A stretch of 64,000 bases of DNA from Lacunisphaera limnophila. Lineage in GTDB: Bacteria; Verrucomicrobiota; Verrucomicrobiia; Opitutales; Opitutaceae. Below the pieces are notes generated by a model, which made no database searches, was not told where the DNA came from, and saw nothing but the letters and a program-made list of their open reading frames with translations. Shown here one piece after another: positions 56,199 through 60,193 of the stretch (its first letter is position 1; each line of letters begins with the position of its first letter). The position numbers and the translations under genes were made by a program. The stretch is from positions 2,294,001 to 2,358,000 of the forward strand of contig NZ_CP016094.1 in the NCBI RefSeq assembly GCF_001746835.1, given 5' to 3'.

Positions 56199-56290
56199 AA
56201 AGGCGGGCGTCCAGCCGAGTCTGCGGGTCCGTTATTTGTCGGATTTTTGTGCGGTTCTTCGGGCGGGCGGCGGTTACAAGGGGAATGAGC

Positions 56291-58084
56291 ATGTCACCCG
56301 ACCTCGAACTTCTGCAGCGCTACGCGCGGCACCGGGACGAACGCGCTTTTCGCGCCCTCGTCGAGCAGCACCTGGCCTTGGTCTATTCCGCCGCCCTTCG
56401 TCGCACGGGCGGCCGGGCCCCGCTGGCGGAGGAGATCAGCCAGAAGGTATTCGCCGACCTGGCCCGCAAGGCCGGATCGCTGTACCGCCATCCGGCCCTG
56501 GCCGCCTGGCTGCACCGCAGCACCCGCTATGCGGCCATCGACGCTATCCGCGCCGAGGCCCGCCGTCAAAAACTGCAGGAAACCATTGCAACCATGCCGG
56601 AAGATCACGCAGAAAAAACCGAATCGGTGGAATGGGCGCAATTGCGTCCCGTGCTGGACGAGGCGATGGACCAGCTGAAGGAGTCGGACCGGGCCGTGAT
56701 GTTCCTGCGCTATTTCGACGGGCTGAGCTTCGGGGAGGTGGGGGAACGGCTGGGGCTTTCGGAAAATGCCGCGCGCATGCGGGCCGAGCGGGCGCTCGAC
56801 AAGCTGCGGCACCAACTGGGCCGGCGCGGCGTGACCTCGACCGCCGGGGCGCTCGGGCTGTTGATCGCCAACCGGGCGGTAGCAGCCACCCCGGAGGGGC
56901 TGGCAAGTAGTGTGGCGGGGGCGGCGCTGAGCCAGGCGGCGGAGGCGACCGGTATTGTGTCGGTGCTCGTGGGCAGTCGCGTCATCGCATGGAGCGCGCT
57001 GACCATCGCCGTGGCGGGGACTGGCTTCGCAGGCTGGCGCTGGGCGGGCCCCGGGCGGCACAGCGGGGCAATGCCGGAGATGGCGATCGCGGCTGACGGC
57101 TTTGCGGCCACGGCCTTGGACGTCTACCGGATCATGGCGCTGGTGCACCCGACCGGGGGTGACCGGCCGGCGGCTGGAACTTCGGCCACGCCGGTCGTTC
57201 CGGCGGACAACGGCCTGGCCGCCGCACGCGCAGTCATGCTGAATTTCGCCGAGGCGTCCCGCGCCCGGGATGTCCCGCGGCTGGCGCAGCTGCTTACCTT
57301 CGACGCCAAGGGCGCCGAGGTGGCGCGCGGGATCCTGGCGAAGATCCCGCCGGCGCTGCGGGAGCAATTGCGCACGCCGGAAGAGCTGTTCGCGTTCTTC
57401 TACGCCACCGACACGCTGCTTTCGCCCGTGCCACCGGCCAAGTTCCTAGAGACCTTTATCGCGACGGAAATGAAGCCGGGGCGCGCCGCCGTGCACCGGC
57501 CCGGGACGGCGCCGCGCGGCCTGGAGTTTGTCCTGACGGACGAAGGCTGGAAGCATGAGATCCCCACCTCCTACCTCACGATTCTGGCAAACCGCATCCT
57601 GAGCAACGAAACGCTGGCGAAACTAAACGCCCTCCCCGAGATCCGCGGCCACGCGGCCACGACCGGACCGGTCCAGACGGGGACCGCCCGGGCGGCGCTG
57701 GCCAGCTATGCGGCGGCGTGCAACCGGGGCGATATCCCGGCGGTGACCGCGATGCTACATTTCGATCCGGGCGCGCGGGTGAAGGCGCTCGCCTTCATGG
57801 ATTCGCTGCCCCCGGCAATGAAGGGCAAATGGCGCAGTCCGGAGGAGCTGGCGGCGGACTTGTTCGTCGACGGCGCGGTCGGCAATCCCTTCCCAACGGA
57901 CGTGGTCCTCGCGACCGCGACCGAGAAAACGGCGGGTGACCGCCGGGTAATCCTGCTGCTGCCGGATGCGACCCGGGACCGCTTTGAATTCGAGCAGACC
58001 GATGCCGGGTGGAAGTACGTCGTCACCGAGGCCATGGTGGACGGCTATCTTCAGCGCCTGGCCGCGGGGGCCGCCCGCCCCTGA
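56291..58084 (+). CDS. ECF sigma factor with duplicated C-terminal extracytoplasmic-type domain
   Basis: A 597-residue protein. Residues about 1-70 are sigma region 2 (DERAFRALVEQHLALVYSAA, ADLARKAGSLYRHPALAAWL) and about 115-175 region 4 (YFDGLSFGEVGERLGLSENA, ARMRAERALDKLRHQLG). A membrane helix follows at about 225-245 (VIAWSALTIAVAGTGFAGWR). The rest holds two similar domains of about 120 residues, each with an ARDVPRLAQLL or NRGDIPAVTAML helix, a PPALREQLRTPEEL or PPAMKGKWRSPEEL helix, and a late FVLTDEGWK or FEQTDAGWKYV strand. AAGGGG at 56278-56283 favours the ATG at 56291 over 56285. No anti-sigma gene is adjacent; the tail may act in its place. Confidence 0.85.
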   Translation: MSPDLELLQRYARHRDERAFRALVEQHLALVYSAALRRTGGRAPLAEEISQKVFADLARKAGSLYRHPALAAWLHRSTRYAAIDAIRAEARRQKLQETIATMPEDHAEKTESVEWAQLRPVLDEAMDQLKESDRAVMFLRYFDGLSFGEVGERLGLSENAARMRAERALDKLRHQLGRRGVTSTAGALGLLIANRAVAATPEGLASSVAGAALSQAAEATGIVSVLVGSRVIAWSALTIAVAGTGFAGWRWAGPGRHSGAMPEMAIAADGFAATALDVYRIMALVHPTGGDRPAAGTSATPVVPADNGLAAARAVMLNFAEASRARDVPRLAQLLTFDAKGAEVARGILAKIPPALREQLRTPEELFAFFYATDTLLSPVPPAKFLETFIATEMKPGRAAVHRPGTAPRGLEFVLTDEGWKHEIPTSYLTILANRILSNETLAKLNALPEIRGHAATTGPVQTGTARAALASYAAACNRGDIPAVTAMLHFDPGARVKALAFMDSLPPAMKGKWRSPEELAADLFVDGAVGNPFPTDVVLATATEKTAGDRRVILLLPDATRDRFEFEQTDAGWKYVVTEAMVDGYLQRLAAGAARP

Positions 58085-58109: not shown

Positions 58110-60020
58110 TTACAGCACCTTCAGCGTCTTGCGGTAGAAGGCGATGACCTCGGCGGGGTCGTCGGTGAAGAGGATGTAGTCGCGCATCCAGGCGGGGGAG
58201 CGCTTCTGGTTGATCATCTCCTCGACCTGCTTCCGCAGGTTGCCCCAGAACTTCGCGTTGAAGAACACGTAGGGGACGCGCGGGCGGATACCGAGCTTGA
58301 GGTTGCAGAGCTCGATGCCGATCTCTTCCAGAGTGCCGACACCGCCGACGTTGAAGATGCAAAAGTCCGCCGCCTCGAACCATTTTTGGCGGAAGTGGCG
58401 GGAGTTTTCCTGGAAGGTGTTGAAGAAATCCACGCCGAGCTCGGGCGGCTGGGCCTCGAGTTCGAGGAAGCAGGCGCCGGTGAGGGCGCCCTTGTCGCGG
58501 GCCTGCTCGGTGGCGAGGCGCATGACGCCACCGCCGCCGCCGGTGAGCACGCCGAGGTTGGAGCCCATGAAGGCGGTGAGCTGGTGCACGAGGGCGGAGA
58601 TGCGGTCGGTGTCGGCCTGGTCGAGGCCGACGGCGGAGCCGTAGAAGGCAAGGATCGTGGCTTCCTGGAACTTGCGGGCCATCTCCTCGCGCACGAAGAA
58701 GCCGTGGTCGCGGCGGTAGGTGTTCAGGTAGAGTTCCTTGGTCATCTCATCGTACCAGTAGACGGGGATGCCGAGGGAGTGGAAGGTGTCGAGACGGGCG
58801 TGGGCGTTGCTCGAGAGGAAGTAGCCGTGGGTGCGCGAGGCCTTGCGAAAGATGATCCGCTTGAGCCGGATGTCGCCGAGGCGCGTGACGAGTTCGGTGT
58901 GCTCGAGCAGGTCGGGGAAGTAGTCGACGATGAGGGTGTCGGCCTCGGGCGTATGGGCGTCGAGGGCCTGGATCATGGTGCGGGCGCCGATGGGGCAGGC
59001 GTCCTGGGCGAGGAGTTTCTTGAGGTCCTCGTCGCCAGCGCGGACGAGGAGGGAGCGATTTTCCATCGTGGCGGACTGGCCGCGGACGGAGATCTTGGTG
59101 CGCGGGCGGGCCTCGGTGTGGTCGACGGCGGGGGAGGCATCGAGGCACTTGTAGAGGGTTTTCGCGGTGGCGAGGAGGCGCTGGCGTTTTTTCGCGAGGG
59201 TCTTGAACTCGGGGTCCTCGGGCGGCGGGGCGCGGAAAATGTCGACCGAGACCATGGGGTTCACCACGGGCTGTTCGCCGGTGTTGTAGATCTCGAGCAT
59301 GATGTTGGTGCCGGAGGTCTTGACGGGGTCGAGGAGGATGGCGGAGGTGTGGAGGCCGAAGTTGCCCTCGCCGGGGCTGAGCACGACGAAGTGCTCGCGG
59401 AGGTACATGGAGCAGCTGGTGAGCACGCCGGAGTGGGGCGGGATGGTCAGCGGCGAGGCGTCGTGGCGGACCTGGACCTTGTCGAGGAAGGAGCGGCCGG
59501 CGTAGCCCGACGCGATGTGCTCGAAGTTCACCCGGATGAGGCGGGGATTGAGGGTGTAGCTGACCGGGTGGGGCGTGAAGAAGACGCGGCCGGAGCTGTC
59601 GATGGAGAGGGTGTTCGGGAGCTTGAGCTGGTTCTCGCGGATGGCGGTCCAGACCTCGGTGGCGGAGAGCTTGGCGGCGGCGGGGGCGTGGAAGAGGCGG
59701 CCGACCGGGACGCCGGGGCGCAGGAGTTTCTGCCAGTAGCCCGCGTTGGGGAAGCTGGCGTCGTAGAGGAAGGCCTCGATGGTGAGGAGGAGGCGGTTGC
59801 CGTCGATGGCGGGGGTGCCGACCGTGACCATCTCGATGCCGATGCGGGCGAGCGAGCTGCGTTCGGTGAAGCGGAGGGAGGCGAGGTGGGTGCGGAGGAA
59901 CTCCATCTCGGCCGGTTGGCGCGGCCAGAAGGCCACCGCGAGGGTGACGCGATCGGGGCTCTTGGCGCGGACGGTGAGGATCTGGCCGTCGGTGCTGTGC
60001 CAGAATTGGTTTTCGTTCAT
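58110..60020 (-). CDS. large protein with C-terminal LOG-type Rossmann domain
   Basis: A 636-residue protein. The C-terminal 220 residues match the LOG/lysine decarboxylase-like family (nucleotide-monophosphate glycosidases): ATILAFYGSA, GVLTGGGGGVMRLATEQARD, and NVGGVGTLEEIGIELCNLKL, where the usual PGGxGT reads VGGVGT. The N-terminal 240 residues are beta-rich, with RSSLARIG and a later LLDPVKTSGTNIMLEIYNTG, patterns that recall the dCTP deaminase/dUTPase fold. A middle domain has LIVDYFPDLLEHTELVTRLG. The ATG at 60020 is chosen because upstream codons are Pro/Arg-rich. The function is unassigned; a nucleotide-cleaning role is one possibility. Confidence 0.75.
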   Translation of the reverse strand: MNENQFWHSTDGQILTVRAKSPDRVTLAVAFWPRQPAEMEFLRTHLASLRFTERSSLARIGIEMVTVGTPAIDGNRLLLTIEAFLYDASFPNAGYWQKLLRPGVPVGRLFHAPAAAKLSATEVWTAIRENQLKLPNTLSIDSSGRVFFTPHPVSYTLNPRLIRVNFEHIASGYAGRSFLDKVQVRHDASPLTIPPHSGVLTSCSMYLREHFVVLSPGEGNFGLHTSAILLDPVKTSGTNIMLEIYNTGEQPVVNPMVSVDIFRAPPPEDPEFKTLAKKRQRLLATAKTLYKCLDASPAVDHTEARPRTKISVRGQSATMENRSLLVRAGDEDLKKLLAQDACPIGARTMIQALDAHTPEADTLIVDYFPDLLEHTELVTRLGDIRLKRIIFRKASRTHGYFLSSNAHARLDTFHSLGIPVYWYDEMTKELYLNTYRRDHGFFVREEMARKFQEATILAFYGSAVGLDQADTDRISALVHQLTAFMGSNLGVLTGGGGGVMRLATEQARDKGALTGACFLELEAQPPELGVDFFNTFQENSRHFRQKWFEAADFCIFNVGGVGTLEEIGIELCNLKLGIRPRVPYVFFNAKFWGNLRKQVEEMINQKRSPAWMRDYILFTDDPAEVIAFYRKTLKVL

Positions 60021-60193
60021 GGGATTGGGCAGGGTGGGGGACGCGGCGGGGGGAGACAAGCCCGGGATGGGACCGTTCCCCGAGGGAGAATTGCCGTGTA
60101 AGGGATTGATTTTTGCCGGGCGGGTGGGCAGTTTCGCGCGCTTTGACGGCACAAACCCACCCGGGCCGTTTCCCAACCGGGCACCCCTCATTC

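Follow-up and report, generated by a model that had tools for sequence, protein, structure and literature searches.

ECF sigma factors tethered to the membrane are already known as a general kind, represented by IutY, ECF52, ECF48, and ECF53. The anti-sigma domain of IutY is of the FecR type, and the SnoaL-like domain is an NTF2-type domain. As presented in the passages that deal with it in two papers, IutY of Pseudomonas putida joins an ECF sigma domain to a periplasmic domain through one transmembrane segment, all in a single chain; the periplasmic part acts in cell-surface signalling as an anti-sigma domain, together with an outer membrane receptor, and the sigma domain is freed when Prc trims the protein and RseP cleaves it (PMC5411451; PMC8999054). 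The relevant section of a 2022 review names IutY as the only tethered ECF sigma factor for which proteolytic activation has been worked out (PMC8999054). ECF52 (SCO4117) and ECF48/ECF53, which are described as actinobacterial, have a zinc-finger anti-sigma domain in front of a C-terminal membrane segment and, behind this segment, an extracytoplasmic tail; their release by proteolysis is proposed in the sections devoted to them (PMC8999054; PMC5826349). In ECF41 and ECF56, as outlined in PMC8999054 and PMC7730460, a SnoaL-like domain is joined behind region 4, and the tail of ECF41 is in direct contact with the sigma linker. FecI-FecR-TonB signalling also carries a signal across the envelope to an ECF sigma factor, and its receptor, transmembrane anti-sigma factor, and sigma factor are typically separate proteins, according to the outline in PMC5411451.

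The protein described here is encoded in the genome of Lacunisphaera limnophila, within a stretch of 64,000 nucleotides (NZ_CP016094.1, positions 2,294,001 to 2,358,000) that we call the window. Its ORF of 599 residues runs on the forward strand from an ATG at 56285 to the stop at 58084; the frame is open from a GTG at 56249, and this GTG and an ATG at 56291 are alternative starts. The protein is an ECF sigma factor (group 4 of the sigma-70 family), as it contains regions 2 and 4 and no region 3 model is found among the seven Pfam families with E <= 1. The NCBIfam sigma70-ECF model scores 87.5 bits against a cut-off of 42.9. Behind region 4, approximately 37 residues lead to a hydrophobic stretch at about residues 224–251; a linker of some 55 residues then separates this stretch from two successive domains, D1 and D2. 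The first-pass annotation had placed an ECF sigma factor with a membrane helix and a sensor-like tail at 56900–58084. Pfam confirms both sigma regions, and the interval covers the tail, whereas the sigma part lies 5' of position 56900. Within its own genome the gene is the sole full-length match, and ten other matches are to the sigma part alone.

The two tail pieces have no match at E <= 1 in Pfam or NCBIfam, and no anti-sigma domain is recognisable in them with either collection. FecR is absent from the seven Pfam families with E <= 1 for the whole protein and from the best 25 of 107 NCBIfam rows, and Pfam gives neither a zinc-finger nor a SnoaL match. The only cysteine is residue 479. A FecR or zinc-finger anti-sigma tail was rejected on these grounds. 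Of the four flanking ORFs tested, one is purD-like, one is LOG/lysine-decarboxylase-like, and the other two encode a low-molecular-weight phosphatase and an FKBP isomerase; none is an anti-sigma factor or an evident target, and no functional link to them emerged. The proposal that the protein has no separate anti-sigma factor thus agrees with what was found in the tail and in these four ORFs. The neighbouring 693-residue ORF on the reverse strand has a sub-threshold SLOG match at residues 532–628, and its first 530 or so residues have no Pfam match at E <= 0.001.

In comparison with the described systems, the window protein probably shares the order of parts of IutY, but is without a FecR match and carries two probably NTF2-like domains. 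Unlike ECF52, ECF48, and ECF53, it has one cysteine and no zinc finger. Unlike in ECF41, a probable membrane helix separates the sigma part from the tail, and there are two domains. In contrast to the FecI-FecR-TonB arrangement, sensor and sigma factor appear to form one chain, and sister proteins carry TonB_C or ExbD. Judged by its sequence, the protein departs from a defining feature in each of IutY, ECF52/48/53, and ECF41/56, which sets it apart from these named groups, not from the whole ECF classification. Among the matches listed in literature searches for sigma-TonB_C fusions and for membrane-bound or tailed sigma factors of Verrucomicrobia, the summaries returned do not describe the family.

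The two tail domains are about 120 residues long and similar to each other. Smith-Waterman alignment of D1 with D2 gives a score of 142 over approximately 115 columns, which was reached by none of 5000 shuffles (mean 28, maximum 60), and the scores of D1 and D2 against the sigma part are 23 and 27. A family HMM, the training set of which includes the window, detects both copies separately, with 127 and 133 bits. The likeness of the two tail halves, noted in the first-pass annotation, is therefore far beyond chance, and the motif pairs quoted for it are present.

An NTF2-like fold has helices in its N-terminal part and a curved antiparallel sheet behind them. We assign the tail domains to this fold as probable, with moderate confidence and on the basis of modelling. 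The fold model of D2, computed from four sequences, has a mean pLDDT of 83. Its VIA structural comparison (50 rows) contains many NTF2-like or cystatin-like folds with Z of 5.4–6.8, among them PBP5fm, scytalone dehydratase, ketosteroid isomerase-like proteins, and the CaMKII hub, where Z below 8 may reflect a common arrangement only. Foldseek with the same model returned nothing at E <= 0.001, and a profile search against PDB sequences yielded 11 rows (best E 0.0029), seven of them de novo ABLE designs. When the family alignment of 31 domains was compared with Pfam, DUF4878 was reached by 2 of the 31 (best E 4.1e-5) and DUF4864 also by 2 (best E 0.0015). The only Pfam match of D1 alone is RACo_linker, which at E 0.17 was taken as chance and rejected. 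A joint model of D1 and D2 has a pLDDT of 70.6 and a pTM of 0.47; in its alignment most of the row of a relative's D2-type protein was placed on D1 instead of D2, and we therefore make no claim about D1-D2 packing.

A search for similar ECF-tail proteins in Verrucomicrobiota, as the first-pass annotation had proposed, found relatives of the protein, several of them in the same genus, in which the two domains are encoded by separate genes. We call these gene A, which encodes sigma part, helix, and domain, and gene B, which encodes an N-terminal anchor and a domain. The tail matched in 15 of 95 genomes, the own genome counted, and was not found in the plasmid collection searched. In L012, a stretch of a Verrucomicrobia MAG (contig C164 of G004) from the genus of the window, gene A encodes 461 residues and ends after domain 1, and gene B begins 10 nucleotides downstream and encodes 239 residues, with a membrane anchor at the start and domain 2 behind it. 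Two genes are also present in G016 and G020, which together with L012/G004 makes three relatives of the same genus. The domain profile matched in at least 72 of 252 genomes of the family, a lower bound because at most 17 candidates were scored per genome. Across the phylum, with at most 11 candidates scored per genome, it matched in 13 of 387 genomes, of which 11 belong to the family and two are marginal, with E near 1e-3.

The arrangement of A and B was scanned in 62 stretches: 60 from mostly high-scoring matches among those listed, L012, and the window piece. Outside the window there are 24 domain-bearing A genes, in a sample weighted to high scorers; 17 of them have gene B behind them and seven do not. 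Viewed from gene B, 42 of 59 lie directly behind an ECF gene (-500 to +400 nucleotides), which has the domain in 17 cases and lacks it in 25. The remaining 17 have no ECF gene directly in front by the detection used; they include L096, at a contig edge, and L127, where B follows a truncated gene with a TonB_C tail. The window gene is the only ORF with two domains among the 62 stretches; two very long ORFs, in G159 and G042, with one listed domain match each, lie outside these stretches.

Two further arrangements were seen around gene B. L092 (G043:C102:39500-53500) contains several tailed-ECF genes in a row on one strand, at least three of them with B behind, which suggests a tandem expansion of the A/B module. 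In L103, L104, L105, L113, L115, and L118, gene B lies behind a long ORF of another kind and not a sigma gene. The long ORFs of L103, L104, L105, and L113 have no Pfam match (0/4 at E <= 0.01), and the label "permease-like", given by eye to some of the genes before B, was dropped on this account.

Table 1. Positions of the features of the tethered sigma factor gene and of a neighbouring ORF, numbered within the window.
Feature	Position	Strand	Evidence or detail
Whole gene, putative membrane-tethered ECF sigma factor with the domains of genes A and B fused	56285..58084	+	599 aa
Sigma region 2 (Pfam Sigma70_r2, aa 25-94)	56357..56566	+	E 2.6e-8
Sigma region 4 (Sigma70_r4, aa 127-176; r4_2, aa 124-174)	56654..56812	+	E 1.2e-12, 5.2e-12
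Conserved juxtamembrane segment, aa 179-215 (RRGVTSTxAAL...AAPAGLA-like)	56819..56929	+	conservation across aligned rows
Probable membrane helix, aa 233-251 (hydrophobic from aa 224)	56981..57037	+	hydropathy
D1, A-type, probably NTF2-like	57203..57586	+	alignment, family HMM, tree; weaker fold model
Fusion junction: A-type C-terminus ANRILSNETLAKLN, then 18-residue linker	57575..57676	+	comparison with L012
D2, B-type, probably NTF2-like	57659..58048	+	alignment, family HMM, tree, fold model
693-aa ORF	58110-60191	-	lysine-decarboxylase/LOG-like match near C-terminal end, aa 601-683

D1 and D2 are each closer to a separate gene of the relatives than to each other. D1 shares 45% of its residues with gene A of L012/G004 (row L028), and D2 shares 42% with gene B of L012; between D1 and D2 the identity is 26%. 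A maximum-likelihood tree was built from 84 domains (23 A, 59 B, and the two of the window; one A domain below 75 bits was dropped). In it, D1 belongs to a set of 15 rows that are otherwise all A (support 98/91), and D2 to a set of 13 rows that are otherwise all B (99/98). Both sets are within one clade of 30 rows (100/100), outside of which A and B are intermixed, with five label changes for each. The alignment behind the tree has few columns, 20 of its 81 inner branches are open, and the end branches of the window domains are long (0.88 and 0.92). As D1 is placed among A domains and D2 among B domains, the window gene is a fusion of A and B that lacks the anchor of B, and not a local duplication. 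The first-pass description of the tail as internally duplicated is misleading in this respect, since the second domain comes from the downstream gene B, which is still separate in relatives. The tandem position of D1 and D2 in one ORF would also result from a duplication that arose within the window gene, with the B-like genes elsewhere being unrelated derivatives, but the identities and the supported branches that hold the two domains apart in the tree make such an origin extremely improbable.

The junction retains the C-terminus of gene A, which reads ILSNETLAKLN in the window protein and ILGNEMLAKLN before the stop of gene A in L012. Relative to L012, the window gene is without the stop of A, the gap between the two genes, and some 100 residues of B that include its anchor and coiled coil; the 18-residue linker takes their place. 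Because this B sequence is absent, and not a stop alone, we rejected a frame error as the cause of the joined genes. Behind the helix, 18 of 24 A proteins have a coil motif (LRAEN and similar), which is absent from the window protein. Six other A proteins are also without it: L106 and L107, which have no B, and four that do. The loss of the coil from the fused protein would fit coils that once paired A with B.

The segment between region 4 and the helix is conserved to the same degree as the sigma regions. The mean majority fraction is 0.70 for residues 179–215, compared with 0.68 and 0.69 for the sigma regions (0.69 for region 4), and decreases to 0.44 for residues 216–250 and to 0.30 for D1, with gaps counting against these values. 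Pro203 is invariant in all 57 aligned rows. The family members were picked by a sigma profile that ends at residue 182; therefore, conservation beyond this residue was not forced by their selection. With at most 18 candidates scored per genome, a profile of the juxtamembrane segment and helix matched in 18 of 288 phylum genomes, of which 14 are from the family of the window and four from elsewhere. The probable membrane helix of the window protein itself is modest in hydropathy: the strongest Kyte-Doolittle window, at residues 224–242, reaches 1.81 and includes Arg231, and residues 233–251 reach 1.46.

TonB_C and ExbD are periplasmic domains. Their occurrence on sister proteins bears on the side of the membrane at which the tail is located. 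Among 57 tailed sigma factors of the same stretches, from which an odd ORF (L121_1289) was left out, 21 have a TonB_C match and four a weak ExbD match (best E 3.1e-6; for example L120:2139-3476). When ten ECF proteins without the tail domain were scanned singly, eight had TonB_C and one ExbD, positioned behind the helix and near the C-terminus. Fusions of an ECF sigma factor to TonB_C through a membrane segment were seen, among others, in L090, L094, L095, L097, L112, L119, L130, and L092:8176-10239, and each of the nine TonB_C- or ExbD-tailed proteins of the singly scanned set is encoded in front of a B gene. The B proteins have a single N-terminal anchor preceded by a positively charged tail: the N-tails of 57 B proteins, taken from the nearest Met, contain 67 K/R against one D/E, and K/R are present in 46 of the 51 that could be scored. 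Since no helix separates D1 from D2 in the fusion, the domains of A and B should share one side. In the B protein L073:3423-4262, the N-terminal hydrophobic stretch ends in a lipobox-like VTAC (noted by eye), which would place that protein outside the cytoplasm.

The opposite arrangement, with a cytoplasmic tail, a second helix formed by the segment that precedes the helix, and NTF2-like domains that act directly on the sigma part, draws on the charge distribution. In 43 of the 58 A proteins, lysines and arginines are more numerous behind the helix than before it, and in four the reverse holds (L121_1289 counted); in the 57 B proteins, K/R average 1.4 over the 10 residues preceding the anchor and 3.0 over the 15 that follow it. 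Both are against a simple positive-inside rule for an outside tail. An Arg-rich coil behind the helix may explain this balance. The segment before the helix reaches the Kyte-Doolittle cut-off of 1.6 in 22 of 58 A proteins, which would allow a two-helix hairpin in some members. Tails that act on the cytoplasmic side have precedents in the ECF41 SnoaL-like tail, described as contacting the sigma linker in the passage on it in PMC8999054, and in ECF56 SigG1 with its SnoaL_2 tail, as summarised in PMC7730460. In the window protein, however, this segment is weakly hydrophobic and interrupted by R197 and E204, and its counterpart in L120 is hydrophilic, which makes a second helix unlikely. On an insertion scale, the helix itself outscores the segment before it in 55 of 57 proteins, though its mean sum is still positive. 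Together with the TonB_C and ExbD tails of the sister proteins and the anchors of the B proteins, these features render a cytoplasmic tail improbable. We infer, with fair support, that the sigma factor is tethered by one helix and that its tail is periplasmic. The membrane-held topology of the first-pass annotation is supported in its single helix and outside tail by the TonB_C and ExbD tails and the B N-tails, and is opposed by the K/R balance. The same division applies to a cytoplasmic tail, the prediction that the annotation had named as counting against it: most of the evidence speaks against such a tail, and the K/R balance speaks for it.

We lean, with little more than even confidence, towards the window protein being a sigma factor held in the membrane, with an outer pair of domains that controls the release or activity of the sigma part, probably by proteolysis. 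Sigma regions 2 and 4 would be located in the cytoplasm, the helix in the cytoplasmic membrane, and the two NTF2-like domains in the periplasm. The ancestor would have been a two-gene module of A, with sigma part, helix, coil, and domain, and B, with a short anchor, coil, and domain, and the homologous outer domains of A and B were most likely paired. In the window protein the two domains are covalently joined, and the anchor of B and the coil stretches are absent. The pairing of the A and B domains is proposed with moderate confidence. A change outside the cell membrane, such as a ligand, envelope stress, or loss of pairing, would most likely alter the paired domains and expose the stalk to proteases, after which a site-2 protease would free the sigma part, enabling it to bind RNA polymerase.

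The proteolytic release of the sigma part is proposed by analogy with IutY. The genome of the window encodes an M50 (site-2) protease (E 1.5e-54); M50 proteases were matched in all 14 control genomes as well, so that its presence is weak evidence and makes this route possible only. No protease site was recognised in the window protein, which would also fit a sigma factor that works while membrane-bound, with the outer domains changing its conformation or oligomeric state and no proteolytic release. Regulators of the ToxR/CadC type act while still in the membrane. The juxtamembrane segment, as conserved as the sigma regions, would suit a conformational relay equally. We consider such in-membrane action unlikely, given the site-2 protease in the genome and the release of IutY, the sole tethered ECF sigma factor with solved activation in the accounts cited, by Prc and RseP (PMC5411451; PMC8999054). 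Release of the sigma part thus stays our preferred reading.

The fusion in the window gene leads to a testable prediction of an A-B complex: A and B appear hard-wired in one chain, and this natural fusion predicts that the separate proteins of the relatives bind each other. Few cases of membrane-tethered sigma factors are known, and the family would provide numerous natural cases in which no anti-sigma domain is recognisable, together with a conserved juxtamembrane segment and a separate partner that is fused in one species. We put forward tentatively, as a possibility that we rate below even, that this family of Verrucomicrobiota employs an undescribed class of transmembrane sigma factors, in which a conserved juxtamembrane relay and one helix link the sigma part to interchangeable periplasmic modules (NTF2-like, TonB_C, ExbD), often with the small membrane protein B as a co-encoded partner. 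Judging from the TonB_C and ExbD tails of the sister proteins, a sigma factor may be connected directly to the envelope energy machinery; if this is true, these members would feed envelope energy coupling directly into transcription.
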